In this document: piece after piece, positions 10,865-29,799 of the stretch
How positions within the stretch are numbered: the first letter of the stretch is position 1
Layout: each line of letters opens with the position of its first letter
Assembly (NCBI GenBank): GCA_903845055.1
Contig: CAIMWF010000003.1
Location: 1 to 32,950, forward strand
Source of the DNA: an uncultured Bacteroidales bacterium
GTDB lineage: Bacteria > Bacteroidota > Bacteroidia > Bacteroidales > FEN-979
DNA length: 32,950 bases
Reading direction: 5' to 3'
Position numbers and translations under genes: made by a program
The notes under the pieces: model-generated
The model's database searches: none
Told to the model about the DNA's origin: nothing
What the model saw: the letters and a program-made list of their open reading frames with translations, nothing else

Positions 10865-10963
10865 AACAGTTTGTGGACTTTGATTGCATTTATCAGGAGA
10901 GAGGAATTGCCGAACATGGCAGTGAAAGTAATAACATTTCATAAGGGTCTCACCCTTCGTGGG

Positions 10964-10980
10964 TTAACAAATTGTTAATT
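10964..10980. promoter_or_regulatory. TTAACA-type pair in the divergent epimerase/EEP region
   Basis: TTAACA (10964) and TTAATT (10975) stand 11 bases apart. They read as TTAACC and TTAACA on the minus strand because TTAA is palindromic. They are not in phase with the main array at 11015-11053. No -7 box at N20 is found for the epimerase gene, so the role is uncertain. Confidence 0.3.
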
Positions 10981-11014
10981 ATTAAACCCGTTGTTTCCCC
11001 AACTGAAGGTTTCG

Positions 11015-11081
11015 TTAAACATTAATTAACAGTTACTTGTTGATCCGTTAACATGCCCGACGCCCATCCGGGTGAACTTTG
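11015..11081 (+). promoter_or_regulatory. Pho-box-like array and -7 box of the sphingomyelinase-like gene
   Basis: Four hexamers start exactly 11 bases apart: TTAAAC (11015), TTAACA (11026), TTGTTG (11037), TTAACA (11048). Then come exactly 20 bases and GAACTTTG (11074-11081), a TAnnTTTG-like -7 box. This is the same layout as the array before the porin-pst operon, including a degenerate third unit. Confidence 0.65.
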
Positions 11082-11106
11082 TCCCTGTAATCAACGAACC
11101 CCCTCT

Positions 11107-12066
11107 ATGTCGAAAAATACTGTCCATATAATCCTTTTTATTTTCCTCGTATCACTGGTCTGCCCTGATGCAAAAGGAAGCCTGCAGTGTCTTCCCGGAA
11201 GAAATCTTCCCGATTCACTGGCTGATCCCGGGATCCAGCTTAAAATCCTGTCATGGAACATCGGTATGCTGCCGCTGGCAGATCTCTTCAAGGAAAAAGA
11301 CGGGCGGCCGGAAGCCATTGCCAGCGCCCTGTACCATTGCCATGAATATGACATCATCGTATTTGAGGAGGCCTTTACCCAGGGGGCCCGGGCGGTTATC
11401 GCAAAAAAACTGCGGGGCCTTTATCCTTTTGCCTATGGTCCGGTGAACGGACATCGTTTGTCGATGAGGGTCAGCAGCGGTATATGGATATTAAGCAAAA
11501 TTCCCCTGGAGATCCGGAAGGAGATCGAATTTACCGAATCGGCCGGTTTTGATGCTTTTGCCCGCAAAGGAGCCGTTTTGCTGGAGGGGCAGTTCAGGAA
11601 TTCGGTTTTTCAACTCATCGCGACCCACCTGCAGGATGACGAATACCCCCAAAGCATCCGGGAATGCCAGCTCAGGCAGATTTACAATGAGTTGCTGCTT
11701 CCCTATTCCGACCCCCTTACTCCCCAGATCATCTGCGGCGATTTCAACACCGATGAAAAGGTTGCCGTGAATTACCTGGGGATGCTGAGCATCTTGAATG
11801 CAGAGGATGGTGAAATTTCGGGGCAGCTTAAAGTATCCTTTGATGATGAATCGAATGATGCTTTCCGTTCCCCCCATCCGGATCCCCGGAGGATTGACTA
11901 TATGCTGACCCGCAACGGGAACCTCATCCGGCATATCAGCCGCGACATCACCGTACTGAGATCGGGGTGGGGTGACGGGAAACAGTACCTCTCCGATCAT
12001 AACGCCATTGAGGCGGAAGTCCTTTTCAGCAACCGTGATTACCTTACCAGGGCCGGCGGAAAATAG
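11107..12066 (+). CDS. secreted endonuclease/exonuclease/phosphatase-fold hydrolase, neutral sphingomyelinase-like
   Basis: Phosphodiesterase of the EEP superfamily, 319 aa, probably cleaving the headgroup of sphingolipids or phospholipids outside the cytoplasm. The signal peptide is residues 1 to about 24. I chose the ATG at 11107 over 11053 because the upstream ATG lies inside the promoter array. Catalytic EEP marks in order: SWNIG (Asn51), FEEAF (Glu87/88), ATHLQDD (His174), CGDFNTD (Asp212, Asn214), RRIDYML and the C-terminal SDHNAIEAEV (Asp297, His298). These match bacterial sphingomyelinase C / nSMase spacing better than DNA repair exonucleases. It is convergent with the olsF operon. 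The Pho-box-like promoter suggests phosphate-starvation control, which fits a role in releasing phosphate-containing headgroups. The exact substrate is inference. Confidence 0.87.
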   Translation: MSKNTVHIILFIFLVSLVCPDAKGSLQCLPGRNLPDSLADPGIQLKILSWNIGMLPLADLFKEKDGRPEAIASALYHCHEYDIIVFEEAFTQGARAVIAKKLRGLYPFAYGPVNGHRLSMRVSSGIWILSKIPLEIRKEIEFTESAGFDAFARKGAVLLEGQFRNSVFQLIATHLQDDEYPQSIRECQLRQIYNELLLPYSDPLTPQIICGDFNTDEKVAVNYLGMLSILNAEDGEISGQLKVSFDDESNDAFRSPHPDPRRIDYMLTRNGNLIRHISRDITVLRSGWGDGKQYLSDHNAIEAEVLFSNRDYLTRAGGK

Positions 12067-12092
12067 TACCTTTGATATTACCGGGGGGAGGT

Positions 12093-13889
12093 TCACCGGG
12101 ATTTGTTATCCTGGAAAAACCGGTCGCTTACCGAATTGTCGGTGACCTCCTTTGAAAGGGATCGTATGGTCTCTGCGGGGATATCGAGCACGTCGGTGAT
12201 GATCAGCACATCCAGGCAATTGTTGAAGTTGGGATCCACATTGAACCCGATCACCTCGGCATTGACGCTCAGGTATTTTTTCAGCAATACCGGGGCCTGG
12301 AATCCGGGGTCAAATGCCTGGATAAAGTTGTCGAGTCTGCTCAGGCTGTTTCCGGTCACCTTGTGAAAAACCTTTTTTTTGATCACCGGGTTGATCTTCC
12401 CGATAAACCGCTTCCTGGGTTTCAGCAATGCACCGTATTCCCTGTTGTAAAAATTTTTCCTAAGGAAAGCAACCGTAAGTGTTTTTGAAAGGTCGCGGAA
12501 CTCATTGCTGATGCTTACCGGGCCGATCAGGTAACGCAGTTCGGGATGGCTGCACAGCAAATTCAGAATCCCTTTCCAAAGAAGGAAAAGTGACAGCGGT
12601 TTTTTCTGGTACGACCTGATGATGAAGGATCTTCCGAGCTCCATGGACAGTTCTAAAACCGGCGCAAATTTATCGCTGATGTGAAAAAGGGTGCTGATAT
12701 AAAATCCCCGGATGCCCGATTCCTTCATGATCCTGTTCCCGAACCCGATCCTGTAACCCCCGATGATCATGTTTTCCCGGTCGTTCCATATGAAAAGCTG
12801 ATCGTAATACCGGTCGAATTCATCGATATCGAAGGGCTTTCCGGTCCCTTCGCCAACCTCCCTGTAGGTGATCTCCCGCAACCTGCCCAGTTCCTGCATG
12901 ATCGCAGGGATTTGCTCTGCCCGGGCTGAAAACACCATGTGATCGCCTAACGAAAAGAGAATGCTGTCGTTTTTCAACTGTTCAATTTCTTTTTCAATAG
13001 CGTACCGGGGACCAACTTCCGCAACCTCCTGTGCATTTCCATGAGAAAAAGACCAGATTTTAAGATGTTTTTCCGATGGAATGCCCAGGGAAAATGTCCG
13101 CATGCGAAGGTATCGCCCGAATTCTGCGATATCTCCCAGCTTGTCCTGTTCTCTTACCGAAACCGGCCTCCCGATCCTGACGCCGATTGTTTTACCCGAT
13201 TTATTGAAAAGTTCCGAAGGAAGGGAGGCGGTGCGCATCATGGGGTGCAGCATGCCGAGCAGCTGGAATTGCAGGCTGTTATGCCCGTCAAAGTGGACCG
13301 GGACCACCGGCACCCTTGCCTTCCGGATGAGTTTCAGGATGGAATGCGGCCACTGCTTATCTGTCACGGTTCCCGTTTTCAACTTGAAAGAGGCAACCTC
13401 TCCCGCGGGGAACAGACCCATTGCATGCCCCTCCCCCAGCCAGGCAATCGCCTCTTTCAGCCCGCCGTAGCTTGATTGCATACCGGGCATTTTTTCGAAG
13501 GGGTTGACCCGGAGGGAATAATTTTCGATCGGCTTGACCCTGGCGAGCAGGAAATTCATCAGGACTTTAAAATCGGGGCGCACCGCAGGCAGGATCTTCA
13601 GCAGGATGATCCCGTCCAGCCCGCCGTATGGGTGATTCGATACCGTAATGAAGGGACCTTTTTGAGGAATGTTTTGGATTTCGCCGGGGGCAATTTCATA
13701 CCGGATACGGAGGGTGCTGATGATCTCATCGATGAATGCCATGGCCGGCAAGCCTTTCGTCTGGTCATAGAACCTGTTGATCCTGTCCAGCTTCATCATT
13801 TTAAGGATGAGGGACGCGAGATGCTCCCCGCCGGGATGATCAAGGATGGGAAACGCCTTAACGATATCATTCGGGGATACAAGTTCCAT
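12093..13889 (-). CDS. olsF: OlsF-like bifunctional acyltransferase (PlsC-type O-acyltransferase fused to OlsB-type N-acyltransferase)
   Basis: Fusion of 598 aa that should build phosphorus-free acyl-oxyacyl amino-acid lipids (ornithine or glycine lipids). The N-terminal domain (about 50-290) is PlsC-like, with SNHPYGGLDG (residues 84-93, the H-x4-D equivalent) and the FPAGE motif near 162-166. The second domain (about 310-440, continuing to the end) matches the hemolysin/OlsB N-acyltransferase family, with YREVGEGTGKPFDIDEFDRYYD and MIIGGYRIG. This order and length are those of the characterised OlsF of Serratia and Flavobacterium (established knowledge). The start follows a Lys-rich ORF by 14 bases, and the operon promoter carries two TTAACA-type units and an N20-spaced -7 box. 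Such lipids commonly replace phospholipids under phosphate limitation. Amino-acid specificity cannot be read. Confidence 0.85.
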   Translation of the reverse strand: MELVSPNDIVKAFPILDHPGGEHLASLILKMMKLDRINRFYDQTKGLPAMAFIDEIISTLRIRYEIAPGEIQNIPQKGPFITVSNHPYGGLDGIILLKILPAVRPDFKVLMNFLLARVKPIENYSLRVNPFEKMPGMQSSYGGLKEAIAWLGEGHAMGLFPAGEVASFKLKTGTVTDKQWPHSILKLIRKARVPVVPVHFDGHNSLQFQLLGMLHPMMRTASLPSELFNKSGKTIGVRIGRPVSVREQDKLGDIAEFGRYLRMRTFSLGIPSEKHLKIWSFSHGNAQEVAEVGPRYAIEKEIEQLKNDSILFSLGDHMVFSARAEQIPAIMQELGRLREITYREVGEGTGKPFDIDEFDRYYDQLFIWNDRENMIIGGYRIGFGNRIMKESGIRGFYISTLFHISDKFAPVLELSMELGRSFIIRSYQKKPLSLFLLWKGILNLLCSHPELRYLIGPVSISNEFRDLSKTLTVAFLRKNFYNREYGALLKPRKRFIGKINPVIKKKVFHKVTGNSLSRLDNFIQAFDPGFQAPVLLKKYLSVNAEVIGFNVDPNFNNCLDVLIITDVLDIPAETIRSLSKEVTDNSVSDRFFQDNKSR

Positions 13890-13903
13890 CAGGTCAGGTC
13901 AGG

Positions 13904-14305
13904 TTATTTGGCTTTTTCTTTCTTTTTCTTCTCCTTTTTTGCAGGAGGGTCCTTCTCCTCCTTTTTTTCAGCCTTTTTCTTTTTTTCTTTTTTTTCAGGA
14001 ACCTCCTCGTCCGGTTTATCCCCGGTTACCTCCTCCGTTTTTTTCCGTCCCGGGAAAAAGGTAAAGGCAATCAGCCGGTAATCCTTTTCCAGCCGGGATA
14101 TATCCTCCTGCAGGATCTGCCTGATCTTTCCTTCAATTTCAAGATAGAAATCATCCTGCTCGCCATCGTGGAACAACACGATGGTTTTTTTCTTGTTCAC
14201 TGCCTCAACAAGGTTCCTGACGTCATGCAGGTCGCCGAGGATGTGTACCTCCGGAATAACCTTTTTCTTGTTTTTTTTCATACCTGATTTTTTAACAATG
14301 ACCAT
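13904..14305 (-). CDS. hypothetical protein with Lys/Glu-rich tail, first gene of the olsF operon
   Basis: I do not recognise a family. The start at 14305 (MVIVKKSGMKKN) follows a -7 box at 14330-14337; an ATG at 14350 lies upstream of that box, and one at 14281 is possible. Residues about 15-90 look globular (VIPEVHILGDLHDVRNLVEAV, TIVLFHDGEQDDFYLEIEGKIRQILQEDI, YRLIAFTFFPG), an alpha/beta pattern. The last 50 residues are low-complexity K/E/P (EKKEKKKKAEKKEEK...), likely disordered or a coiled coil. The gene ends 14 bases before olsF and so is probably cotranscribed with it. The basic tail might contact anionic membranes, polyphosphate or nucleic acid; that is speculation. Confidence 0.65.
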   Translation of the reverse strand: MVIVKKSGMKKNKKKVIPEVHILGDLHDVRNLVEAVNKKKTIVLFHDGEQDDFYLEIEGKIRQILQEDISRLEKDYRLIAFTFFPGRKKTEEVTGDKPDEEVPEKKEKKKKAEKKEEKDPPAKKEKKKKEKAK

Positions 14306-14329
14306 GGCTGTGAAATTGTAAATAGTTTG

Positions 14330-14374
14330 TAAACTTACAATTACATCCACTTGCCAATGTTAAATAAGTATTAA
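14330..14374 (-). promoter_or_regulatory. Pho-box-like half array and -7 box of the olsF operon
   Basis: Read on the minus strand: TTAATA (14374-14369), five bases, TTAACA (14363-14358), exactly 20 bases, then TAAGTTTA (14337-14330), one mismatch from TAnnTTTG. The period (11) and the N20 spacer equal those of the pst and EEP promoters. There are only two units and no recognisable unit further upstream. Confidence 0.5.
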
Positions 14375-14411
14375 ATTTTCGGAAGGATCAACCTCACTGT
14401 CTGGTTCTGCC

Positions 14412-14419
14412 TAATTTTG
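14412..14419 (+). promoter_or_regulatory. -7 box of the CHAD-phoB operon
   Basis: TAATTTTG matches TAnnTTTG, 28 bases before the ATG at 14448. The TTAA hexamers upstream (14360, 14371) are at the wrong distance to act on this box as in the Pho arrays. Confidence 0.45.
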
Positions 14420-14447
14420 TTACGAATTTATTTGCAGATGTTTTCTT

Positions 14448-15323
14448 ATGAAAAATAATCCTGATTTTGAGATTGGTGATTTTATCTTCCGTTTTTTCAG
14501 GAAACATGCCGCCTCCTTCCAGGCAAACATCTGCAAAGCCTCGATAACAGGAAACCCGAAGGACATACACCGGGCAAGGCTTGACGTAAAAAAAATCTTC
14601 GCGATTTTTGATTTATTGCGGATCCTGCGGCCAAAAACCGAAAAAGACCCCGAATACGAAAAGCTTTTTAAAAAATTATACAAAGCTTCCGGCAGGCTCA
14701 GGGAGGTTCAGATCAATCTCCTGCTGCTCACCGGGGATGAATTCACCGGATACGACCTGGAACCCTTTACCGCTTATCTTCGGGAACAGGAAAGGGAAAG
14801 CACGGCCGATTTTCTTGACCTGGTCAGGAAATTTGACGAGGATGAACTGACCTGGGTGGAAAAACGCATCAAAAAGGAGATCGGGCGCATTACCCCGGCC
14901 ATCCTGCATAAAAAAACCAACCGTTACATCCACGATAAGACCGCCTGGATCATGTACCTCATCGATAACGGTGACGATGAAAAGAAGCTACACCGCATCA
15001 GGCAGCAGATGAAGGAGCTGGGAACGGTATTGTCCATCGTGACCAGCGTCAGGCCTGCAGGCCAGGTTGAAAAGGTAATTTCCGGGCTGAACAAAACCGA
15101 AATGTTGATCGGCGACTGGCACGACAGGGTCATCCTGGCCGGATCGATGGAGACCTTTATCGACCAGGCAAAGACACCTGAACCTTCGTCACTTGCCCCT
15201 GTCAGGGATTGTTACCTGTGGCTTTCCGGGACGAACGGGCAACTCTTTGAGAAAATGACCCGGGATGCCAGGGCGTTCATCAGCCCGGGACCTTCGTCGG
15301 TGTTACATTCTACGGAACGATGA
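14448..15323 (+). CDS. CHAD domain protein
   Basis: All-helical protein of 291 aa with the conserved-histidine CHAD fold, which binds inorganic polyphosphate through basic and His residues. The two tandem half-repeats each begin with a His-x2-R-x3-K helix: IHRARLDVKKIFAIFDLLR (near residues 40-58) and LHRIRQQMKELGTVL (near 181-195). The family G-x-x-H-D motif appears as IGDWHDRVILA near residues 222-232. There is no fused CYTH domain, so it is a stand-alone CHAD. It ends 22 bases before the phoB-type gene in the same direction, so they are likely cotranscribed. This links polyphosphate binding with phosphate signalling. The family call is solid; the physiological role is inference. Confidence 0.85.
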   Translation: MKNNPDFEIGDFIFRFFRKHAASFQANICKASITGNPKDIHRARLDVKKIFAIFDLLRILRPKTEKDPEYEKLFKKLYKASGRLREVQINLLLLTGDEFTGYDLEPFTAYLREQERESTADFLDLVRKFDEDELTWVEKRIKKEIGRITPAILHKKTNRYIHDKTAWIMYLIDNGDDEKKLHRIRQQMKELGTVLSIVTSVRPAGQVEKVISGLNKTEMLIGDWHDRVILAGSMETFIDQAKTPEPSSLAPVRDCYLWLSGTNGQLFEKMTRDARAFISPGPSSVLHSTER

Positions 15324-15345
15324 TCAAATAAACAATACACCCCTC

Positions 15346-16032
15346 ATGGAAAACTCAGAGATCACCATCCTTCTTGTAGACGACGAAGCCGATATCCTGG
15401 AATTCCTGGGGTATAACCTCGAGCGGGAGGGATACCGGGTTCTGAAAGCGAAAAACGGTGCGAAAGGGGTAAAACTTGCCATGGAACAGAAACCGCAGCT
15501 GATCATTCTCGATGTGATGATGCCGGTGATGGACGGGGTGCAGGCATGCGCCGAGATCAGGAAAATCCCAGAACTCTCGGGTACGCTGATCGCCTTCCTG
15601 ACGGCAAGGGGCGAGGAATTTTCCCAGATCGCGGGGTTTGACGCGGGGGCCGACGATTACATCACAAAGCCGATCAAGCCCAAACTCTTCCTTCACAGGG
15701 TCCAGGCGCTGCTCCGGCGTTACCGTACAGAAATGGTCCCGGAGAATATCATCCAGCTGAAGGAATTCACCATTGATAAGGACCGCTACCTGGTGATGCT
15801 TGGCACAACCGAAGTCACACTGGTGCGCAAAGAGTTCGAACTCCTGCAGTTTCTCGTTTCACGGCCCGGGAAGGTGATTCTGCGGGAGGAGATTTTCACA
15901 AATGTCTGGGGCCCTGACGTGGTGGTCGGCGAACGTACCATCGACGTTCATATCCGCCGGATCCGCGAAAAACTGGGGATCAACAGCATTAAAACCGTCA
16001 AAGGGGTTGGTTATAAATTCGAAGAAGAATAA
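15346..16032 (+). CDS. PhoB/OmpR-family response regulator
   Basis: Two-domain transcription factor of 228 aa. The receiver has the acidic pair Asp12-Asp13, phosphoacceptor Asp56 (LIILDVMMP), Thr86 and Lys108 (ITKPIK), so it should be phosphorylatable. The C-terminal winged helix (about 135-228) shows VTLVRKEFELLQFL, the transactivation-loop region RPGKVILREEIFTNVWG, and the recognition helix ERTIDVHIRRIREKLG ending in KTVKGVGYKF, which is the PhoB/OmpR pattern. I start at the ATG at 15346; the frame extends to 15265 but that overlaps the CHAD gene. No histidine kinase of the PhoR type is adjacent. CHAD upstream and the pst operon 11 kb away make a PhoB role likely, and it is the natural candidate to bind the TTAACA arrays. 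Confidence 0.88.
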   Translation: MENSEITILLVDDEADILEFLGYNLEREGYRVLKAKNGAKGVKLAMEQKPQLIILDVMMPVMDGVQACAEIRKIPELSGTLIAFLTARGEEFSQIAGFDAGADDYITKPIKPKLFLHRVQALLRRYRTEMVPENIIQLKEFTIDKDRYLVMLGTTEVTLVRKEFELLQFLVSRPGKVILREEIFTNVWGPDVVVGERTIDVHIRRIREKLGINSIKTVKGVGYKFEEE

Positions 16033-16038
16033 CCCTCC

Positions 16039-16296
16039 ATGAAAAAAAAACATACCCGGATCATTGGCATCGCATTGATCCTGTTGTCATGGATTTTCTG
16101 GGGACTGGTCTTCGCGGTCCCGTTTTTCAGACTCGGGGTGAAAAACTCCGCCATCGCCATCTCCATTCTGCTTGCCGCAACAAATATTTTCTGGGTCGGG
16201 ACCTTTCTTGCCGGGAAAGAAATGATCAGGACTTCCCGGATCTGGCAGAAGATTAAAAAATGGACTGGCAGGTCAACCGGCAGGATGGACGGATAA
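16039..16296 (+). CDS. small two-TM membrane protein (transporter-suffix-domain-like)
   Basis: Inner-membrane protein of 85 aa with two hydrophobic segments (about 8-31 and 38-57): GIALILLSWIFWGLVFAVPFF and AIAISILLAATNIFWVGTF. These are followed by a GKE motif and a basic cytosolic tail. The pattern (L-S-x2-F-W-G...VPF..., FW-x-GT-x2-x-GKE) resembles proteins annotated as transporter suffix domain proteins. It starts 6 bases after the phoB stop codon and belongs to the CHAD-phoB operon. Function unknown; possibly an accessory or sensor-associated membrane subunit. Confidence 0.7.
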   Translation: MKKKHTRIIGIALILLSWIFWGLVFAVPFFRLGVKNSAIAISILLAATNIFWVGTFLAGKEMIRTSRIWQKIKKWTGRSTGRMDG

Positions 16297-16310
16297 CCTG
16301 GTGAAATATG

Positions 16311-16327
16311 TTAATGTTTATTTAACA
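16311..16327 (+). promoter_or_regulatory. candidate TTAACA pair upstream of the ATP-grasp gene
   Basis: TTAATG (16311) and TTAACA (16322) stand 11 bases apart, as in the Pho-like arrays, but no TAnnTTTG-like box lies 20 bases downstream. Possible half site only. Confidence 0.3.
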
Positions 16328-16388
16328 GGCAGGAAATATAGCATTTATCTATTATGTGTTTATTTACACCTTGTAATAACATGGCATC

Positions 16389-17306
16389 ATGCTCGGTTGG
16401 ATTCTTCATAAACATTCTGATTTCTTGTTAAAGCCCGAAACCTATGAGATTCATAAACTCATGGAGGAGGGAAAATCAGCAGGGATTGAAATTCAGGTTC
16501 TCAAACCTGAACAGATCGAAATCATTGTTAACCGCGACGACCGTAAAAGCATCTTTGTCAATGATGTCTCAACATCCCTGCCCGATTTCATCATCCCGAG
16601 GATGGGGGCAGGAACCACCTATTTTGCCCTTGCCTTGATCCGGCACCTTGAAAAGCTCGGCGTTTATTCGTTCAACTCGGCCGCTTCGATCGATATTGTC
16701 AAAGACAAATTGTTCCAGTTGCAGATCCTTGCCGAGTCGGGACTGCCGATACCAAAAACCATGCTGGCCAGGTTCCCCATCGACCCTGAAATTGTCGGAA
16801 AGCACATCGGATACCCGGTGGTGGTTAAAACCCTTTCGGGATCGCAGGGAAGCGGGGTCTTTCTGTGTGAAACCAAGCAATCATTCGATGAGCTGATGCA
16901 CATGGTTGAAAATACAAACTCCAATGTGAACCTGATCTTCCAGGAATTTGTGAAGACCAGCCACGGCCGTGACCTGCGTGTGATGACCGTGGGAGGAAGG
17001 GTGGTCGGCGCCATGGCAAGGACCTCTTCCGACGGGAACTTCAAGGCCAATTATTCAAGGGGAGGTACCATCAATAAGTTTGAGATTACGGCCGAGATAG
17101 AATGGCTTGTGATGGAAATCGCCAGGATCCTCGACCTTGATATTGCGGGCATCGACCTGCTGTTCGACGGCGACCGGTTTAAAATATGCGAGGTCAATTC
17201 ATCCCCGGGTTTCGAGGGACTTGAACAGGCCTGCGGGAAGAACATTGCCAGTGAGATCATCCAGTTTGTAAGACTCAGGCTGGAAATGAAAGGCAAGGGA
17301 CGATAA
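16389..17306 (+). CDS. RimK-like ATP-grasp ligase
   Basis: Carboxylate-amine/thiol ligase of 305 aa, RimK (alpha-L-glutamate ligase) type. ATP-grasp marks: DKLFQLQILAESGLPIPKT (about 105-123), the Gly-rich loop GYPVVVKTLSGSQGSGVFL (about 140-158), the adenine-contact segment IFQEFVKTSHGRDLRVM, RGGTINKFEI, and the metal-binding DIAGIDLLFDG...FKICEVNSSPGFEGLE with the terminal Glu and Asn. A substrate cannot be chosen: ribosomal S6 glutamylation, coenzyme or peptide tailing are all possible. It stands alone and is followed by two hairpins. A TTAACA pair upstream hints at weak phosphate-type control. Confidence 0.87.
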   Translation: MLGWILHKHSDFLLKPETYEIHKLMEEGKSAGIEIQVLKPEQIEIIVNRDDRKSIFVNDVSTSLPDFIIPRMGAGTTYFALALIRHLEKLGVYSFNSAASIDIVKDKLFQLQILAESGLPIPKTMLARFPIDPEIVGKHIGYPVVVKTLSGSQGSGVFLCETKQSFDELMHMVENTNSNVNLIFQEFVKTSHGRDLRVMTVGGRVVGAMARTSSDGNFKANYSRGGTINKFEITAEIEWLVMEIARILDLDIAGIDLLFDGDRFKICEVNSSPGFEGLEQACGKNIASEIIQFVRLRLEMKGKGR

Positions 17307-17442
17307 CCAGCCGGTGGAGGATGCCGTCGCACTATTATTCGTTTGTAATGAGAGTGAATGACAGCGTGTCGGCTCTTTAAAACCAGATAGCCTTCCGGAA
17401 GGGACCGCGGAGCGGTTCTTCCGGCGTTTTACTTGCCAAGTG

Positions 17443-17477
17443 AAAACCCTGATTTCATTTGATTTCAGGGTTTTTTT
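17443..17477 (+). terminator. intrinsic terminator after the ATP-grasp gene
   Basis: Perfect 10-bp stem AAAACCCTGA (17443-17452) / TCAGGGTTTT (17465-17474) with a 12-base loop and a T-run to 17477. Confidence 0.88.
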
Positions 17478-17506
17478 GGGGTGTACGGAAATTTCCCGTT
17501 ACTTTG
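17475..17506 (+). promoter_or_regulatory. promoter of the START-domain gene
   Basis: TTTG (17475-17478), exactly 20 bases, TTACTTTG (17499-17506). This is close to the -33 TTTG / -7 TAnnTTTG consensus, with an ATG 20 bases further on. The -33 box is formed by the T-run of the preceding terminator. Confidence 0.7.
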
Positions 17507-17526
17507 CCGAAAATTGAGATTCCCAG

Positions 17527-18144
17527 ATGAAAAATCACCTTTCCAGGCTTTTTTTAACGTTTGCGGCATTGATGGCATTTTCAACTTCGGTGCAGGCTCA
17601 AAACTGGGATTTCATCAAGGAGAGGGAAGGAATCAGGATCTTCACGAGAAGAGACGCCGGCAGTTCCCTTAAGTCGTTCCGCGGCGAGACCGATATCCGC
17701 ACCTCCATGGAGAAAGTGTGTAACCTCATCGGCAATGTGAAGAATGTCGACTGGTGGGATAAAAACCTGCGCGAGATCAACGTCCTGACCTATGAAAAGG
17801 ACAAACATGTGCAGTATTACCTGGTTTATGGGGCGCCCTGGCCTGTAACCGACCGCGACCTGTGCGTCGATGCGACCATCACCACTGACCCGGTGAAGGG
17901 ACTCCGTACCATCAGTTCCGTTCCCCTTTTCAACGTGGTCCCGGAGAACCCGAAATATGTCAGGATCAAAAAATACTGGCAGAAATGGGTCATGCAGGAT
18001 ATGCGGAACGGGACCATTCATGTCACCCTCGAAGGATTTGTCGATCCCGCCGGGAGCGTCCCGAACTGGATCTACAACATGGTGATCACCGAGACCCCCC
18101 TGAAGATCATCCGCGGGATCAAGGAGCGGCTCGAAAAGCACTGA
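17527..18144 (+). CDS. secreted START-domain lipid-binding protein
   Basis: Protein of 205 aa with a signal peptide (residues 1-25, ending SVQAQ), so it should act in the periplasm. The mature part matches the START/StAR-related fold: NWDFIKEREGIRIFTRR at the N-terminus, SFRGETDI, the WWDKNLREINVL segment, YYLVYGAPWPVTDRDLCVDATI (the hallmark P-x-x-x-R-D-x-C region near 100-118), and the C-terminal PNWIYNMVITETPLKIIRGIKERL helix that lids the hydrophobic cavity. START proteins carry lipids such as sterols, phospholipids or ceramides. Its neighbours are a lipid-type GT4 and a PlcP-like hydrolase, so transport of a membrane lipid or lipid product between membranes is plausible (inference). Confidence 0.87.
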   Translation: MKNHLSRLFLTFAALMAFSTSVQAQNWDFIKEREGIRIFTRRDAGSSLKSFRGETDIRTSMEKVCNLIGNVKNVDWWDKNLREINVLTYEKDKHVQYYLVYGAPWPVTDRDLCVDATITTDPVKGLRTISSVPLFNVVPENPKYVRIKKYWQKWVMQDMRNGTIHVTLEGFVDPAGSVPNWIYNMVITETPLKIIRGIKERLEKH

Positions 18145-18184
18145 TCCACGCCGAAACCCTTGCCGATTATACCTTTTCCGAATA

Positions 18185-18212
18185 TTAAATATTCGTGAAC
18201 AAATCGTTAATT
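18185..18212 (+). promoter_or_regulatory. candidate Pho-like array before the first GT4
   Basis: TTAAAT (18185), TGAACA (18196) and TTAATT (18207) start 11 bases apart. The nearest -7-like box, GATATTTG (18238-18245), is 25 rather than 20 bases away, so this is a partial match. Confidence 0.35.
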
Positions 18213-18256
18213 ACCGGTTTTTTTCGCATGTGGCCGCGATATTTGCAAAAAAAATC

Positions 18257-19432
18257 ATGCAGATGACCACCTGCCAGTTCAACGATTCCTATTTCCCGAT
18301 CATGGACGGGGTCGGGATGACGGCTCACAGTTACGCTTACTGGCTCAATGAAAAGTATGGAAAAGGGATGCTCATCGCCCCGAAGGTGAAGGATTATAAA
18401 GACAATGTTCCTTACAAGGTATATCGTTTCAAATCGGTGTTGTTCCCGGGCATGCATCCCTACCGCGTGGGTCTGCCGCTCATCGACGTCACTTTTAAGA
18501 AGAAAATCAAAAAGATCAGTTTCGACCTGCTGCATGCCCATTGTCCCTTCATCAGCGGCCAGCTTGCCGTAAAACTGGCCACCCGGCTCGACATCCCGCT
18601 GGTGGCCACTTTTCATACCAAGTACCGCGACGACTTCAAAAAGGTACTCGACAATGACCTTTTCGTCGAATTCCTGCTGAACATCACCCTCGATTTTTAC
18701 AAGGCCGCCGACCTGGTATGGGTTCCCAACAGGGCCACCGGGCAGACCCTCGTGGATTACGGCTACAAGGGAACCTATGAAGTGATGCCAAACGGCACCG
18801 ATATGGAGGTTCCCGACAAGGCAAAATTGCTGAAGTACCGGAAAAAGGGGCTGAATCTCATTGGCTCGGGTCCCGACGAATTCGTGATGCTTTTCGTCGG
18901 GCAGCACCGCTGGGAAAAAAATATCAGGCTCATCATTGATGCGCTGAAGGTGCTGAAATCGGCAGGTGAACAGTTTAAAATGGTATTCGCGGGCGAGGGT
19001 TATGCTTCGAAAGAGATGCATAAAATCGTTGAACAATTCGGACTTGGCGACCAGGTTGTCTTCCTGGGGGTCATTACCGACCGTAAGGTCCTTCAGCACG
19101 TGTATGCTGCCTCCGATCTGCTCGTTTTCCCATCCATTTACGACAATTCACCCCTGGTGATCCAGGAGGCCGCCGCCTTTGATGTGCCGACCGTAATCGT
19201 AAGAGACAGTTCAACGTCGGAGGGAATCCTCGACGGGGTCAACGGGTTCCTTATTGAAAACGAAGTGGCCGCCCTTGCCGGCCGGATCGGGGAACTGATG
19301 CGTCATCCCGGGGCCATCAGAAAGGCCGGGGAGGGGGCGCGTAAAACCATCTACCACCCCTGGGAAGGAATCGTGGATGATGTTCACATGCGGTATGCCG
19401 AACTGATCAGGGATCACCGGAAAACTGCATAA
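18257..19432 (+). CDS. GT4-family glycosyltransferase, lipid-glycosyltransferase-like
   Basis: GT-B fold retaining glycosyltransferase of about 391 aa. The first ATG after the GATATTTG box is 18257; 18263 is equally good and would align MTTCQFNDSYFPIMDGV with the usual MKI start. The frame upstream to the GTG at 18230 overlaps the likely promoter. The N-terminal domain has the DSYFP...DGVGMTAHSYA acceptor loop and the LLHAHCPFISGQLA...PLVATFHTKYRDDF pattern seen in diacylglycerol glucosyl- and galactosyltransferases. The C-terminal domain has FVGQHRWEKN, FAGEG, and the donor site PSIYDNSPLVIQEAAAFDVPTV. It probably makes glycolipids at the inner membrane. The sugar and acceptor are not determined. 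It is adjacent to the plcP-like gene, convergent with it. Confidence 0.85.
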   Translation: MQMTTCQFNDSYFPIMDGVGMTAHSYAYWLNEKYGKGMLIAPKVKDYKDNVPYKVYRFKSVLFPGMHPYRVGLPLIDVTFKKKIKKISFDLLHAHCPFISGQLAVKLATRLDIPLVATFHTKYRDDFKKVLDNDLFVEFLLNITLDFYKAADLVWVPNRATGQTLVDYGYKGTYEVMPNGTDMEVPDKAKLLKYRKKGLNLIGSGPDEFVMLFVGQHRWEKNIRLIIDALKVLKSAGEQFKMVFAGEGYASKEMHKIVEQFGLGDQVVFLGVITDRKVLQHVYAASDLLVFPSIYDNSPLVIQEAAAFDVPTVIVRDSSTSEGILDGVNGFLIENEVAALAGRIGELMRHPGAIRKAGEGARKTIYHPWEGIVDDVHMRYAELIRDHRKTA

Positions 19433-19477
19433 GGAGGTCGGTCGGGAAGGAGCATTGGTGCAAAGGACGTTGCAACC

Positions 19478-20332
19478 CTAGTGAATTTCGAATTCCCTCA
19501 GCAATTCTTCAAAGGTTTGCTTGTGGCTCGGCGATTCGGCCTGTTTCGACATCAGCGCATAGGCCGGGGCAAAAAGATCTTCGCGGAAGTTGTATATGCT
19601 CCATTCACCTTTATGGAACTCAAGGGCCGAAAGGCTCTCCACCCAGTCGCCCGAATTGAGGTAGGTTACCGACCCCTGGGTGTTAGCGATGGTGCGTATC
19701 TCGGGCTGGTGAATGTGACCGCACACCACGTAATCATAACCCTTCGTGATGGCAATCCCTGCCGCGGTGTTTTCGAACTTGTTGACATAGGAAACGGCGG
19801 TTTTGACCCGGTGCTTGATGCGCTGTGAGAATGAAATCTTCTCACGGCCCAGGCTTGACAGGATAAAATTGGAGGCTCCGTTGAGGAGGATCAGCAGGTC
19901 GTAACCGACCGACCCCAGCTTTGCAAGCCATTTACTGTACTGCATCGTGATGTCGAACACATCCCCGTGGAAAATCCATGCTTTCTTACCGTCAAGGTCG
20001 AGCAGCAGTTTGTTGACCAGTTTGAACGACCCGATGTTGAACTTGACGAACTTCCGCATCAGTTCGTCGTGGTTGCCGGTGATATAAACGACTTTCGTGT
20101 TCTTCGCTATCATACCGGTCAGATGCCTGATGACCATCAGGTGCGATTTCGGGAAATAGCGTTTGCGGAACTGCCAGATATCGATGATGTCGCCGTTTAA
20201 AATGAGCATTTTGGGCTGGATGCTCCTGAGGTACTGCAGCAATTCCCTTGCATGGCAGCCAAATGAACCAAGATGCACATCGGAAATGATTACCAGGTCG
20301 ACCTGTCGCTTGGGGAGGGGATGCTGTTTCAT
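19478..20332 (-). CDS. PlcP-like calcineurin-type metallophosphoesterase (COG2908; LpxH-like alternative)
   Basis: Dimetal phosphoesterase of 284 aa. I start at the second ATG (20332) because the first, at 20341, lies too close to the -7 box to be on the transcript. Metal ligands: SDVHLG (Asp18, His20), GDIID (Asp48), GNHDE (Asn87, His88), HGDVFD and GHIHQPE. The extra segments KWLAKLGSVGYDL, HRVKTAVSYVNKFE and YLNSGDWVES match the COG2908 branch holding PlcP, the phosphate-starvation phospholipase C of Sinorhizobium and marine bacteria. That branch is often misannotated as UDP-2,3-diacylglucosamine diphosphatase. Flanking GT4 genes recall plcP-agt loci, where diacylglycerol released from phospholipids is glycosylated. 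The promoter has a Pho-like array. PlcP versus LpxH is inference from motifs and context. Confidence 0.8.
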   Translation of the reverse strand: MKQHPLPKRQVDLVIISDVHLGSFGCHARELLQYLRSIQPKMLILNGDIIDIWQFRKRYFPKSHLMVIRHLTGMIAKNTKVVYITGNHDELMRKFVKFNIGSFKLVNKLLLDLDGKKAWIFHGDVFDITMQYSKWLAKLGSVGYDLLILLNGASNFILSSLGREKISFSQRIKHRVKTAVSYVNKFENTAAGIAITKGYDYVVCGHIHQPEIRTIANTQGSVTYLNSGDWVESLSALEFHKGEWSIYNFREDLFAPAYALMSKQAESPSHKQTFEELLREFEIH

Positions 20333-20342
20333 GGGATTCATG

Positions 20343-20420
20343 CAAAGTTACGCCGGTCAGCCGACAAGAATGTCAACAGGATATTATGAAATCATTAAAT
20401 TACCGTTAAGAAATTATTAA
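20343..20420 (-). promoter_or_regulatory. Pho-box-like array and -7 box of plcP, shared with the divergent GT4
   Basis: On the minus strand: TTAATA (20420), TTAACG (20409), TTAATG (20398), ATAATA (20387), TTGACA (20376), each 11 bases apart; then exactly 20 bases and TAACTTTG (20350-20343), a perfect TAnnTTTG. On the plus strand the palindromic TTAA cores form TTAAAT, TTAAGA, TTAACT, TTGTTG at 20395, 20406, 20417, 20428, facing the GT4 gene. Confidence 0.65.
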
Positions 20421-20457
20421 CTTTCTCTTGTTGCGAAAAACGAGGTGCCTTTCTATG

Positions 20458-20465
20458 GACCTTTG
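20458..20465 (+). promoter_or_regulatory. -7-like box of the second GT4 gene
   Basis: GACCTTTG followed by C, 24 bases after the last plus-strand repeat unit (TTGTTG, 20428-20433). Near-consensus; it would yield a transcript beginning around 20472. Confidence 0.4.
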
Positions 20466-20485
20466 CTTTAAAAATATTCCTAACC

Positions 20486-20674
20486 ATGAATGTAAATATG
20501 CAAAGATCCGGGAGTAAAAACAAGCTGTCGCGCCGTGAAACACTCCCGCTCCTTCGCGGGATGTTCATCTGCCCCGAACCGGTCAGACGCCTTAAAAACG
20601 CAGCCGGTCACGAGCTGTTACGGGGCCTTCTCACGCAACGGGACCCATCTCCCTATGAGTTTGCCTGTGAATGA
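20486..20674 (+). CDS. possible 62-aa leader ORF before the second GT4
   Basis: First ATG after the -7 box. It encodes 62 residues (MNVNMQRSGSKNKLSRRETL...), basic, with no recognised motif, and ends 20 bases inside the GT4 start. It could be a regulatory leader ORF, translationally linked to the GT4 by overlap, or not translated at all. A short hairpin CCCGC/GCGGG lies within it (about 20547-20562). Confidence 0.25.
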   Translation: MNVNMQRSGSKNKLSRRETLPLLRGMFICPEPVRRLKNAAGHELLRGLLTQRDPSPYEFACE

Positions 20675-21818
20675 GCCCGCGCAGCAGGGCCGCCTGCTGT
20701 GGATGACCGATACTTTCGGCGACCAGAACGGTGTTTCCTCGGTTCTGAAAGCGGTGCATGAGGAGATCAAATCGCGCAACCTCCCGGTCGACCTCCTGGT
20801 ATGCAGCCACACCATCAGGCCCGATGATCACCTCATCGTTGTAAAACCCGTTTCCGAATTTGTCTTTCCCCTCTACCGGCAGCAGCCGGTCAGAATCCCG
20901 AATTACCTGTCGGTTCAGCGTATTTTCCGCAGGGGGAAATACGACCGGATCATCTGTTCCACCGAGGGACCCATGGGACTTGCCGCACTGTGGCTGAAAA
21001 AGGTTTTCTCGGTCGAATCGTACTTTTTCATGCATACCGACTGGATGATGTTTGCCAGGGAGGTGCTTTCGCTTGAAAAGTCCGGCCTTGGCCGCCTGCA
21101 GAAAGCGCTGAGGATTTACTATAAAAGTTTCGGAAACATTTTTGTACTGAATACCGAACACCGGCAATGGCTCACCGGAGATGCAATGGGTTTTGATCCT
21201 TCGCGGGTTTTTATGACAGCCCACTGGGCAGACCCTGCCTTTTCGGCACTGTCATCCGGCATCACGGTGGTTCATCCCTTCAACCGTCAGAAACCGGTTA
21301 TCCTTTATACCGGCAGGATCAGCAGGGAAAAGGGAATTATGGAACTGCCAGCCATCATGGGGATGGTCAGGAGCTCCATACCGGGTGCCCGGCTGGTGGT
21401 TGCAGGAACCGGGCCGGCGGAAGAGGAACTTAAAACAGCCCTGCCCGATGCCGCTTACCTGGGCTGGGTGGAACAGGAGAGCCTTGCAGACCTTTTTGAA
21501 GCGGCCGACATCCTGCTGCTGCCCTCCCGTTTCGACACCTTCAGCTGTGTCGTGCTGGAGGCCCTCACCTGCGGGCTGCCGGTGGTTGCCTACAATACCA
21601 AAGGTCCCCGGGATATCCTTGAAGACTCGGTGAGCGGGTACCTGGTGGAGACCCCTGAAGAGATGGCCGGCAGGGTGGTTGAATTCTTCCTCGACCCGGG
21701 CCAGCAGATGCGGATGAAACAGGCTGCCTTCAAAAGGGCTGAAACATACCGGGCCGACAAGATCATGGACCGTTTGCTGAGCGATACAGGCCTGATCAGG
21801 ATATCTGCAGACGTATGA
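20655..21818 (+). CDS. GT4-family glycosyltransferase, Agt/SQDG-synthase-like
   Basis: Retaining GT-B glycosyltransferase of 387 aa. The frame opens at 20535, but conserved sequence begins at LLWMTDTFGDQNGVSS, so I use the ATG at 20655 (MSLPVNEPAQQGRLLW). The N-domain shows the DTF-x-DQNGVS acceptor loop, IICSTEGPMGLAAL and SYFFMHTDWMMFA, the arrangement of lipid GT4 enzymes such as Agt, MgtA and SqdX. The C-domain shows ILYTGRISREKG, VVAGTGPAEEEL, and the donor motif PSRFDTFSCVVLEALTCGLPVVA (E-x7-E form). It is divergent from plcP and shares the array between them. The ATG of the GH13 gene overlaps its stop. The likely product is a phosphorus-free glycolipid or an alpha-glucosyl compound; this is not certain. 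Confidence 0.82.
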   Translation: MSLPVNEPAQQGRLLWMTDTFGDQNGVSSVLKAVHEEIKSRNLPVDLLVCSHTIRPDDHLIVVKPVSEFVFPLYRQQPVRIPNYLSVQRIFRRGKYDRIICSTEGPMGLAALWLKKVFSVESYFFMHTDWMMFAREVLSLEKSGLGRLQKALRIYYKSFGNIFVLNTEHRQWLTGDAMGFDPSRVFMTAHWADPAFSALSSGITVVHPFNRQKPVILYTGRISREKGIMELPAIMGMVRSSIPGARLVVAGTGPAEEELKTALPDAAYLGWVEQESLADLFEAADILLLPSRFDTFSCVVLEALTCGLPVVAYNTKGPRDILEDSVSGYLVETPEEMAGRVVEFFLDPGQQMRMKQAAFKRAETYRADKIMDRLLSDTGLIRISADV

Positions 21819-23431
21819 ACAAGATAAAGGATGAAACCTGGATATGGTGGAAACACGGCGTGATCTACCATATATATCCCAGAAGCTTCCAGGATTCCGA
21901 CGGTGACGGCATCGGCGATATCCGTGGAATCATTCGCAGGCTCGCCTACCTGAAAGAACTTGGCATCGACGGGATATGGATCTCCCCGATGTACAGGTCG
22001 CCCATGGTTGATTTCGGTTATGACGTTTCGGACTACCGTGAAATCGACCCCGTTTTCGGAACGATGGGGGATTTCAGGGAACTGCTTGCCACTGCCCACG
22101 GCATGGGCATCCGGGTCATCCTCGACATGATCCTGAACCATACCTCCAGCCTTCATCCGTGGTTCATCGAATCCGCCTCGTCAGCCGAAAATCCCAAAAG
22201 AAACTGGTATATCTGGAAAGATGGCGCCGCCGGCCGGCCGCCAAACAACTGGAATTCGGCCTACGGCGGAAATGCCTGGAAACTGGATGAAAAGACAGGC
22301 CAGTATTACCTCCATTCCTTTTTTGAACAGCAGCCCGATCTCAACTGGCGTGATCCTGAACTGCCCGGTGTCTTTTTCGAAGAGATGAAGTTCTGGCTCG
22401 ACATGGGGGTCGACGGGTTCAGGCTCGACGTGATCAACCTGATCGCAAAAGATAAAAAGTTCAGGAGCAACCCGCTGGTTTTCGGCATCCCCGCATTGCA
22501 GCGGCATGTTTACACGCGAAACCGGAAATGGTCGGTGACCCTGGTGACCCGGATCCGCGAACTGCTCGACCTTTACGATGAGCGGGTATCCATCGCCGAA
22601 ATCTACGCGCCGCCCCCCGGCGATGTGAAAACGGTGGCGCGGTACCTGGCAAAAGGAACCAACGGCGTACACCTGGCTTTTGATTTTTCGCTGATCTTCA
22701 GTTCATGGAATGCCCACTCCTATTTCAGGAACATTACGAAATGGTACGAAAGCCTGCCCGGCGGGGGCTGGCCGTGCAATGTCCTTTCAAACCATGACCT
22801 GCTGCGCAGCATCGACCGTTTTCCATGGCACAGGGACCGCGAGGCGAAGGCAAAAGTAGCCGCCACCCTGCTGTTGACCATGAAGGGAACCCCGTTTATT
22901 TATTACGGCGAAGAGATCGGCATGCACAATGGCTCGATCCGCCGGAAAAACATCCGCGATCCGCTCGGGAAGCGCTACTGGCCTTTGTTCAGCGGGCGGG
23001 ACAAGGCGCGCACACCCATGCAATGGAATCCGGGGTTGAATGGAGGATTCACCGGGGGTAAACCATGGCTGCCGCTGAACCGTGATACCGTGCATCGCAA
23101 TGTGCGACAGCAGGAGGGGGAGGCCAGTTCATTGCTCAACCACTACAGGAATGTCATCAGGGTGCGCAGAATTCATTCCTCCCTGCAATCGGGAGCATGG
23201 ATACCCGCACTGAACGGTAAGAACGGCATACTGGCCTATTACCGGGTCAATGAGCGGGAACGGCTGCTGGTAATCCTTAACTTCACAGGCAGGCAAAAAA
23301 TCCTGACGCTGCCGGAACACACGGGTGGCAAAGTGCTTTCGTCGACCCACCGGGGCTATGAAGAGTTTAACTATTTTCAGAATGTGAAAATAGAGGCTTT
23401 TGAAGCCTCTGTCTGGCTGGTGATCGAGTGA
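21815..23431 (+). CDS. GH13 alpha-glucosidase (oligo-1,6-glucosidase type)
   Basis: Cytoplasmic glycoside hydrolase of 538 aa; no signal peptide. TIM-barrel GH13 signatures: the DSDGDGIGD calcium-type loop (27-35), DMILNHTS (region I), GVDGFRLDVINL with nucleophile Asp205, AEIY with acid/base Glu262, and VLSNHD with Asp328. Val after the nucleophile (DVINL) is typical of alpha-1,6-acting oligo-1,6-glucosidases rather than alpha-1,4 maltases. A C-terminal beta domain (about 460-538) is present. The start overlaps the GT4 stop as ATGA, so synthesis of the two is coupled. A CBM48 protein is convergent 26 bases beyond. It may hydrolyse or transfer alpha-glucosides related to the GT4 product or to glycogen breakdown. 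Confidence 0.88.
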   Translation: MNKIKDETWIWWKHGVIYHIYPRSFQDSDGDGIGDIRGIIRRLAYLKELGIDGIWISPMYRSPMVDFGYDVSDYREIDPVFGTMGDFRELLATAHGMGIRVILDMILNHTSSLHPWFIESASSAENPKRNWYIWKDGAAGRPPNNWNSAYGGNAWKLDEKTGQYYLHSFFEQQPDLNWRDPELPGVFFEEMKFWLDMGVDGFRLDVINLIAKDKKFRSNPLVFGIPALQRHVYTRNRKWSVTLVTRIRELLDLYDERVSIAEIYAPPPGDVKTVARYLAKGTNGVHLAFDFSLIFSSWNAHSYFRNITKWYESLPGGGWPCNVLSNHDLLRSIDRFPWHRDREAKAKVAATLLLTMKGTPFIYYGEEIGMHNGSIRRKNIRDPLGKRYWPLFSGRDKARTPMQWNPGLNGGFTGGKPWLPLNRDTVHRNVRQQEGEASSLLNHYRNVIRVRRIHSSLQSGAWIPALNGKNGILAYYRVNERERLLVILNFTGRQKILTLPEHTGGKVLSSTHRGYEEFNYFQNVKIEAFEASVWLVIE

Positions 23432-23457: not shown

Positions 23458-23763
23458 TCAGACAGCCAGCACCGAATTCTCCGATCCCAGTCCGCTGGCT
23501 ATGAAACCATCGGCTTCGGGATCGTTTTCCCACCTGGTGCCATCAACAAGGTAACGGAACTGGTATTCCCTTCCCGATTCGAGGTCGAGGGAAACCGACC
23601 ATACACCGGTCTTTGATTTTTTAAAAGGGGATTCTCCCATCTGCCAGTTGTTGAAATCGCCCAGGAGGAGGATCGATGAGGTTGATTTATACTGATCTCC
23701 CGAAAGAGAAAATTTTACCTTGCAAACGGGTTTGGCTTTCAATAATTTCTTTTCAATACTCAT
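23458..23763 (-). CDS. CBM48 / isoamylase early-set domain protein (glycogen-binding)
   Basis: Small protein of 101 aa made of one beta-sandwich of the AMPK-beta/isoamylase-N type, which binds glycogen or starch. Family residues: LLGDFNNWQMGESPFKK (DFNNW start of the fold), GVWSVSLDLESGREYQFRYLVDG, W-x-NDPEADGF, and a terminal SENSVLAV strand. No catalytic domain is attached. It has its own -7 box and runs towards the GH13 gene. A glycogen-targeting or regulatory subunit is likely; the partner is not known. Confidence 0.88.
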   Translation of the reverse strand: MSIEKKLLKAKPVCKVKFSLSGDQYKSTSSILLLGDFNNWQMGESPFKKSKTGVWSVSLDLESGREYQFRYLVDGTRWENDPEADGFIASGLGSENSVLAV

Positions 23764-24119: not shown

Positions 24120-24153
24120 TTAACAGAACTTTGTGATAAATTCACTATATTTG
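24120..24153 (+). promoter_or_regulatory. promoter of the 24181 gene
   Basis: TATATTTG (24146-24153) is a perfect TAnnTTTG. A single TTAACA (24120-24125) lies exactly 20 bases upstream. No further 11-bp-phased units exist here, so I treat it as an ordinary promoter. Confidence 0.5.
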
Positions 24154-29724: not shown

Positions 29725-29753
29725 TTTTGGTTAATATCAGTGTGCAAATCGAT

Positions 29754-29781
29754 GAGGGCAACACGGTCAAGTGTTGCCCTC
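29754..29781 (+). other. intercistronic hairpin between pstS and pstC
   Basis: Perfect 11-bp stem GAGGGCAACAC / GTGTTGCCCTC with loop GGTCAA. There is no U-tract (TATCGTTA follows), so it is more likely an mRNA 3'-end stabiliser or attenuator than a full terminator. Confidence 0.75.
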
Positions 29782-29799
29782 TATCGTTAAAATTTCAAA

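Follow-up and report, generated by a model that had tools for sequence, protein, structure and literature searches.

The locus described here raises the question of whether a member of the Bacteroidota keeps together, under common control, the genes for exchanging its phospholipids for phosphorus-free lipids during phosphate starvation. Phosphate-sparing lipid exchange of this kind has been studied best in proteobacteria. The window, that is the whole stretch of DNA analysed, is an entire contig of 32,950 bases from an uncultured Bacteroidales bacterium, the draft genome of which totals 3.95 Mb. The original prediction was a membrane-remodelling island of 11 kb with a sphingomyelinase-like EEP enzyme, OlsF, CHAD, PhoB, a START protein, two lipid-type GT4 glycosyltransferases and a PlcP-like phosphoesterase, and the domains of all these genes were found at or near the positions proposed (Pfam, NCBIfam and the list of open reading frames, ORFs). 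Beyond them we found a porin-like gene with pstSCAB-phoU (27.3-32.9 kb), a TPR-PAS-HisKA_2 histidine kinase (24.7-27.1 kb), a GH13 alpha-glucosidase-like gene, a small CBM48 protein and a beta-propeller/PF04185 phosphoesterase (6.65-9.1 kb). The island is broader than 11 kb and extends to the pst operon; possibly it also reaches back to the PF04185 phosphoesterase. We consider it likely, from promoters, homology and gene order, that the stretch is a PhoB-controlled phosphate-starvation island with a lipid swap. That it belongs to the Pho regulon is very probable, and the lipid-swap role is plausible but unproven.

Central to the proposed swap is the PlcP-like metallophosphoesterase (MPE; 19478-20341, reverse strand). 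It shares 34% identity over 259 aa (E=3e-36) with the product of a Sinorhizobium meliloti gene that is adjoined by AHL (acyl-homoserine lactone) synthase and LuxR genes and which, from gene order and position, we take to be SMc00171 (PlcP). The metal-binding residues of MPE (D21, H23, D51, GNHD 89-92, H125 and GHIH 208-211) are invariant in 13 aligned sequences, including the rhizobial one. In the part of the source available, SMc00171 is termed a phospholipase C among Pho-regulon genes (PMC3596328). Homology and metal motifs point to a PlcP-family enzyme, as had been proposed, the S. meliloti label being partly presumed. At the same time, the best solved relatives of MPE by profile and by fold are LpxH enzymes, and database records label such proteins UDP-2,3-diacylglucosamine diphosphatase, as would be the case if MPE were a lipid A enzyme (an LpxH variant) in a cluster for outer-membrane sugar lipids with only incidental phosphate control. 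The fold matches were obtained at 15-18% identity, with a query TM-score of about 0.45-0.51 and a large root-mean-square deviation, from an AlphaFold model of only fair quality (mean predicted local distance difference test score 73), and a match of this kind would be expected for the superfamily. MPE scored 50 bits against the LpxH model (cut-off 134), and a separate LpxH-type gene of the same genome (C62) scored 95.6 bits, itself below that cut-off; with the other gene scoring higher, MPE was ruled out as the genome's LpxH. An essential lipid A enzyme would be expected throughout the window's family, yet only 22 of the 43 family genomes, some of them incomplete, yielded MPE (33 of 81 genomes with its own included, E up to 1e-10), and the MPE promoter matches that of pst, which makes the lipid A explanation quite improbable.

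A further link between MPE and phosphate lies in the promoters. Allowing one mismatch at most, we counted 18 copies of the repeat pair TTAACN6TTAAC in the window, vs. 1.16 expected (near-palindromic sites scored on both strands), and none of 100 shuffles reached 18. A spacing scan of the intergenic gaps of the window gave 16 pairs at a period of 11 bp and 0-5 at others, except for 7 at 22 bp. Downstream of the repeats lies TAnnTTTG(C), which we take to be the -7 element of Bacteroidota. With the same tolerance of one mismatch, the window contains five copies of the composite TTAACAT-N19-TAnnTTTG, vs. 0.06 expected, so the claim that promoters here match the pst promoter was borne out. An exact copy stands before porin-pst, where four TTAAC-like repeats at 11 bp are followed after 19 bp by TACCTTTG (27221-27287, forward). 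The remaining four, each with one mismatch, precede EEP (11048-11081, forward; TTAACAT-N19-GAACTTTG), orf148-olsF (14330-14363, reverse), MPE (20343-20376, reverse) and orf168 with the kinase (24120-24153, forward). Additional TTAAC pairs were seen upstream of EEP at 10963-10979 and 11014-11030, and the orf148 element recurs before orf148 in two relatives (L032 and L033; L denotes fetched loci and G genomes). Tandem TTAA(C/T) repeats with the 11-bp period lie between the divergent MPE and GT4b genes (20394-20421, reverse), and a TTAAC pair, a triple repeat in the genus, lies 5' of GT4a (18195-18210, reverse). As the aligned MPE upstreams of relatives, together with pst, were the source of the composite, its copies at pst and MPE cannot count as independent of it; those at EEP, orf148 and orf168 are less circular evidence. 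An alternative pattern gave 12 matches vs. 2.4 expected yet did not single out promoters, and a genome search for the triple repeat gave 5 sites, 2 of them in the window, from which it had been built; neither was used as evidence. No Pho-type promoter was found for the START gene in the window. A TTAAT/TTAAC pair also lies 5' of RimK (16311-16326), although RimK is unlinked to the core in relatives.

The same layout was seen in relatives. Alignment of MPE upstream regions from 18 family genomes, window included, revealed five TTAA-type elements 11 bp apart, with TAnnTTTGC at a constant distance after the last. Across 40 loci from or near the family we counted 52 composites at the 19-bp gap (50 distinct sites, L033 and L059 being overlapping stretches); the 20 other gaps gave between 1 and 16 each, the 16 falling at 30 bp, one repeat further. 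For 49 of the 52 sites an ORF of at least 50 aa was found within 260 bases (the other three are unlisted, and one gene is listed twice, in L033 and L059); some of these genes were scanned with Pfam and the rest named from the similarity of their first residues. They comprise MPE (17), porin-pst (7), PhoB (4), PafA-like genes (3; L031, L035 and L038), orf148 (2), orf168 (2), single cases of PstS, CBM48, GT4a and a 38% relative of the kinase, five TonB-receptor-like rows (one gene twice) and five copies of a 118-aa CarboxypepD_reg-like protein. Of the three PafA-like genes, the two that were scanned both lie above the cut-off for the alkaline phosphatase PafA (664.8 and 658.4 vs. 650). With the window counted, 18 of the 22 family genomes that carry MPE have the composite in front of this gene (not L039, L042, L046 and L047). 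The composite also stands before porin-pst in 7 of the 8 relatives whose locus includes that start (not in L040), and before phoB in 4 of the 10 relatives' loci that contain a 59-75% match (two of these loci are cut). A motif taken from plcP and pst then picks out phoB and pafA, which is strong evidence for the Pho regulon. Judged by its promoters, the island has the signature of a Pho island, an element common to pst and an autoregulated phoB. MPE itself is predicted to be under phosphate-starvation control through a promoter type in common with pst, and the control originally proposed is supported by the pst promoter here and by pst, phoB, PafA-like and TonB receptor genes in relatives. A TonB receptor gene in L045 bears such a promoter as well.

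A separate check for the repeat pair in relatives was positive for 7 of 8 GT4a, 4 of 4 porin-pst and 18 of 19 MPE upstreams, and negative for EEP (0 of 3), orf148/OlsF (0 of 2, with a third listed row skipped) and PstS (0 of 2); the EEP genes of L041 and L044 begin directly behind another gene. The repeat was also found outside the lineage. For this we used the best 80 of at least 594 MPE-containing stretches from named genomes (Bacteroidota by title), a set that may omit genomes near the window's own. Their 250-bp MPE upstreams held 52 pairs at 11 bp, 22 at 22 bp and 3-16 at other spacings. The pair was present in 45% of the 80 upstreams, compared with 6.0% of 786 control ORFs, called mechanically from the same loci, and 8.4% of those 479 that follow a gap. 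Exact pairs were found in 7 of 80 upstreams vs. 0.15 in shuffles, and one-mismatch pairs in 36 of 80 vs. 4.75. As a side observation, the 118-aa protein has a signal-like start and stands behind a Pho-type promoter in five relatives (L031 5656-6012, L032 4405-4761, L033 16466-16822, L035 9569-9925 and L038 14880-15236); the one copy that was scanned, from L031, is CarboxypepD_reg-like.

Gene order gives a second line of evidence. Several fetched regions stop at contig ends (e.g., L031, L035, L069 and L070), so neighbor counts are lower bounds. GT4b adjoins MPE in 21 of the 22 family genomes with MPE, window included (exception L047), GH13 is beside it in 18, with two of the four misses at contig ends, and the MPE locus of 16 contains a full-length GT4a. 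The pst operon or porin lies within about 35 kb in at least six relatives (G008, G013, G026, G027, G032 and G034). Among the 43 family genomes, 20 have both MPE and GT4a, 2 only MPE, 5 only GT4a and 16 neither (Fisher p=9e-6 without kinship correction, at unequal E limits of 1e-10 and 1e-60). Two of the four genomes with both genes in a sample of the order (see below) show linkage of another kind: in G237, from another family, CAAX protease, a partial MPE, GT4b, GH13 and GT4a lie within about 7 kb; in G195 MPE is adjoined by a short GT4a-like piece, orf168, CHAD and the kinase, and the counted GT4a match is on another contig. The core GT4a-PlcP-GT4b-GH13 recurs in the window's family and in at least one other family of the order, as the prediction of co-occurrence beyond this genome required. 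If the genes were neighbors by chance, widespread envelope genes with an accidental place near pst, neither the 21 of 22 adjacencies nor the enrichment of promoter sites would be expected, and for the core this explanation is contradicted and next to negligible overall. It remains valid for RimK and perhaps for START: for these two, the CAAX protease and the epimerase, hardly any, if any, conserved linkage or composite promoter was seen.

What the two glycosyltransferases do is less clear-cut. GT4a (18257-19432, forward; ORF listed from 18230), a candidate glucolipid synthase, matched the alpha-monoglucosyldiacylglycerol synthase (Mgs) model NF049988 over its full length with 90.7 bits, far above the genome's three other matches (34, 31 and 26). 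GT4b (20535-21818, forward) resembles several GT4 groups; BshA and others were its best models, and a glycogen-synthase model ranked above the lipid models. Its end overlaps the gene for a GH13 alpha-glucosidase/transglucosidase-like protein (21815-23431, forward), the nearest solved structures of which are the alpha-glucosidase 3wy1 and then the alpha-glucosyltransferase 6aav, presumably from Halomonas and Xanthomonas, respectively. Next to GH13, Pfam identified a small CBM48/AMPK-type glycogen-binding protein (23458-23763, reverse), which has a Pho-type promoter in L035. With these neighbors GT4b may serve alpha-glucan and not lipid, so of the two lipid-type GT4s originally called, GT4a is retained and GT4b left in doubt. 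A wider version of this idea accepts a true Pho cluster in which GT4b, GH13, CBM48 and perhaps GT4a handle storage alpha-glucan and PlcP alone acts on lipid. In its favor, the best GT4a relative, on a Butyrivibrio plasmid (L192 8016-11504), has an alpha-glucosidase gene behind it, and none of the 12 features shown there is a PlcP. Yet the fit of GT4a to the lipid model is full-length, its occurrence in the family goes with that of MPE, and the adjacency of PlcP and a glycosyltransferase occurs again in another phylum, where a PlcP homologue adjoins a GT4a homologue on a plasmid of Candidatus Thiodictyon syntrophicum (Gammaproteobacteria; L191 4000-6173). The storage-glucan version is possible, and we would put it clearly below even chances. 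The GT4-GH13 pairing in the window (18257-23431) and in Butyrivibrio (L192) may predate the phosphate system.

The other genes proposed for membrane remodelling fared unevenly. The secreted EEP enzyme (11107-12066, forward; signal peptide by eye) was given a start moved from 11053 to lie downstream of its promoter. Its only NCBIfam match was the sphingomyelinase model TIGR03395, at 52.8 bits well under the cut-off of 248, and all 7 listed solved relatives are of sphingomyelinase type (best 42 bits). EEP was found in 11 of 81 genomes and lies 6-8 kb from MPE in three genomes of genus g8 (L041, L044 and L045). In L041 it closes a row of TonB receptor, unknown gene, purple-acid-phosphatase-like gene and EEP; on these neighbors we rejected it as a membrane-remodelling enzyme proper, and EEP is better read as a putative secreted phosphate scavenger. 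The OlsF-like bifunctional aminolipid synthase (12093-13889, reverse) has the two-domain Acyltransf_2 + GNAT fusion and scored 389 bits with NF052615, below the cut-off of 620. It is present in the fetched locus of 2 of the 21 family relatives with MPE (L030 and L031) and, outside the family, in G059 and partially in G071. According to the accessible part of one source, OlsF makes ornithine lipid as a single protein, a route noted particularly for Bacteroidetes and Flavobacteria (PMC11631085). The available text on Labilibaculum euxinus, a member of the same phylum, gives constant aminolipids at 1.4 and 0.35 mM phosphate, with the authors noting that the cells were not phosphate-limited (PMC12927429), a caution against a role of OlsF in the phosphate response. 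The secreted START-domain protein (17527-18144, forward; signal peptide by eye) is loosely linked, being present in the locus of 5 of the 21 relatives (L029, L030, L036, L038 and L047). RimK had no copy in any of the 21 loci and a single 27% match in a named locus (L119), and was rejected as a member of the system. The wider membrane-remodelling reading is partly supported, in its PlcP/GT4a core; OlsF and START accompany the core in few relatives and RimK in none of those covered.

Upstream of olsF on the same strand is orf148 (13904-14305, reverse), a conserved gene with a lysine-rich tail and no Pfam family. It has a divergent promoter region in common with CHAD (14448-15323, forward), the listed ORF of which overlaps the start of the PhoB-like response regulator (15265-16032, forward; true start probably near 15346). 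The lysine-rich orf148 and CHAD are reminiscent of polyphosphate-binding proteins. CHAD and PhoB are both near the core in six relatives (L031, L032, L033, L035, L037 and L038), and 10 of the 80 named loci contain some response regulator of this kind. The stretch with the OlsF end and PhoB is found twice on one contig of G001 (full, L031 8350-10835; partial OlsF, L071 5952-6853), either a duplication or an assembly fault. No PhoR-type kinase adjoins phoB in the window. The TPR-PAS-HisKA_2 kinase (24736-27108, forward) lies behind orf168 (24181-24639, forward; no Pfam family) and upstream of porin-pst, and it holds the same spot before the porin in L029, L060 and L186. With a Pho-type promoter upstream via orf168, it is possible that this is a phosphate-starvation kinase of an unusual type. 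The porin-like outer-membrane protein (27310-28833, forward) had no Pfam match and was named by eye and by its place before pstS; it is followed by pstS, pstC, pstA, pstB and the start of phoU (28885-32950, forward), phoU being named by position and by eye. At the other side, the possible outer edge of the island is the PF04185 phosphoesterase with beta-propeller (6652-9126, reverse; Pfam; secreted by eye), which has no composite promoter of its own in the window; a 72% relative lies beside GT4a in L046, and L035, L036 and L038 have relatives of 26-28% next to the cluster. A DDE transposase fragment at the window start (98-865) marks the edge of an insertion sequence element.

Several observations weigh against a PhoB-controlled island with a lipid swap. 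OlsF, EEP, PhoB and GT4a are like their families and not proven members, all scoring under the curated cut-offs of their best NCBIfam models: GT4a is Mgs-like at 90.7 vs. 400 bits, and the PhoB-like protein reached 203 vs. 296 bits with TIGR02154 and 197 vs. 270 with NF053854, which are still its best models. When three mismatches were allowed, the composite fell to chance level (11 vs. 8.6 expected), and the limit of one mismatch was adopted afterwards. The window phoB has no composite promoter of its own at up to one mismatch, and the GT4a repeats lie about 24 bp from the -7-like element, vs. 19 elsewhere. In a sample of 295 genomes from the order, MPE was found in 17 and GT4a in 18, and both in only 4 (E up to 1e-60; p=0.014). 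MPE is an orphan in most of the 80 named Bacteroidota loci, GT4a being within reach in none and OlsF in one (flanks up to 10 kb, some cut), on which grounds a phylum-wide conserved cluster was rejected. Over the whole of these loci the 19-bp composite showed no peak (18, with 4-21 at other gaps), so that the full layout is shown for this lineage only, the repeat itself being broader. Exact TTAACN6TTAAC pairs also lie near a MoxR-like ATPase and other non-phosphate genes of this genome. Genome-wide there are 19 exact pairs, 2 of them in the window, vs. 5 for the reversed pattern, and those outside are near the MoxR-like ATPase, a second EEP-family enzyme, CstA (L160, L161 and L169) and others.

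This last point bears on the identity of the regulator. In the available text, the DAP-seq motif of Riemerella PhoP, a Pho-type regulator from Bacteroidota, is TTTAACA with the same TTAAC core, and the protein binds the moxR promoter; the 11-bp periodicity and the 19-bp gap to a -7 element are not reported in that text (PMC9603813). Given this motif at moxR and exact pairs near MoxR-like and CstA genes, the core repeat may serve more than one regulator, e.g., another OmpR-type protein. If it were bound mainly by a global regulator of the Riemerella PhoP kind, the response would be to stress broader than phosphate limitation. However, 32 of the 49 genes behind the composite are MPE, porin-pst, PstS, PhoB or PafA-like, or 15 of the remaining 32 once MPE is set aside, and the Riemerella system itself is said in the text available to be upregulated in phosphate starvation (PMC9603813). 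We regard control by such a regulator as unlikely, and favor PhoB as the predicted binder.

The concept of a phosphate-controlled lipid exchange has precedents. The PlcP-Agt system of alphaproteobacteria and SAR11 (Sebastian et al., PMC4796936) likewise places a PlcP-family phospholipase beside a glycosyltransferase, with putative Pho boxes upstream; as far as the accessible text goes, the cluster of the window differs in coming from Bacteroidota and in having GH13 and a further GT4 alongside, in many cases together with phoB or pst. For Bacteroidota, the sources available provide a starvation transcriptome and a lipid profile. In Flavobacterium johnsoniae, PlcP (Fjoh_4577), a glycosyltransferase of the phoBR operon, TonB receptors and phosphatases are among the phosphate-depletion genes; in the part of the paper available plcP is listed as an orphan, and the glycosyltransferase belongs to PF04101, not GT4 (PMC8115612). 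The terms Pho box, binding motif and TTAAC are absent from the main text of that paper. Remodelling is reported for Dokdonia sp. MED134, also from Bacteroidota, which combines plcP with aminolipids under phosphate starvation, with no cluster described in the text available (PMC4796936). GT4 enzymes are needed in Caulobacter under phosphate starvation and lead to phosphorus-free glycolipids; there the acceptor is ceramide, and PlcP is absent from the main text (PMC6445935). PhoB of Bacteroides fragilis controls pst according to the available text, in which a term search did not find the site sequence (PMC3547664). The openly licensed literature, as far as accessible, turned up no phosphate-specific promoter element and no plcP-glycosyltransferase cluster tied to pst or phoB for Bacteroidota. 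Of the claim that such a system was undescribed, the clustering with pst/phoB and the promoter layout look new, and the concept itself was already known in Bacteroidota from F. johnsoniae (PMC8115612) and Dokdonia (PMC4796936).

Taken as a mechanism, the preferred reading would run as follows. At low phosphate, phosphorylated PhoB would bind the TTAAC repeats, replacing the contact with a -33 element. Uptake (porin-Pst) and scavenging (EEP and phosphatases) would be induced together with the PlcP step, in which the predicted cytoplasmic PlcP-like enzyme may strip phosphorylated head groups from the cell's own phospholipids to give phosphate esters and diacylglycerol. GT4a may then glucosylate the diacylglycerol to a phosphorus-free glucolipid, and OlsF would contribute aminolipids in genomes where it is linked. 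GT4b and GH13 could extend or trim the product, supply sugar or make storage glucan. A more specific proposal is put forward only tentatively, as we think it has well under an even chance: that a layout of the lineage's own, with up to five TTAAC repeats at 11 bp that replace the -33 element and stand 19 bp from TAnnTTTG, and with its repeat part at plcP across Bacteroidota, drives a two-GT4 and GH13 route to a phosphorus-free glucolipid of a kind undescribed in the phylum, plus an OlsF aminolipid. With the promoter layout, it would become possible to predict from sequence which genes of these relatives form the regulon, and GT4a, GT4b and GH13 can be named as the specific enzymes worth testing.

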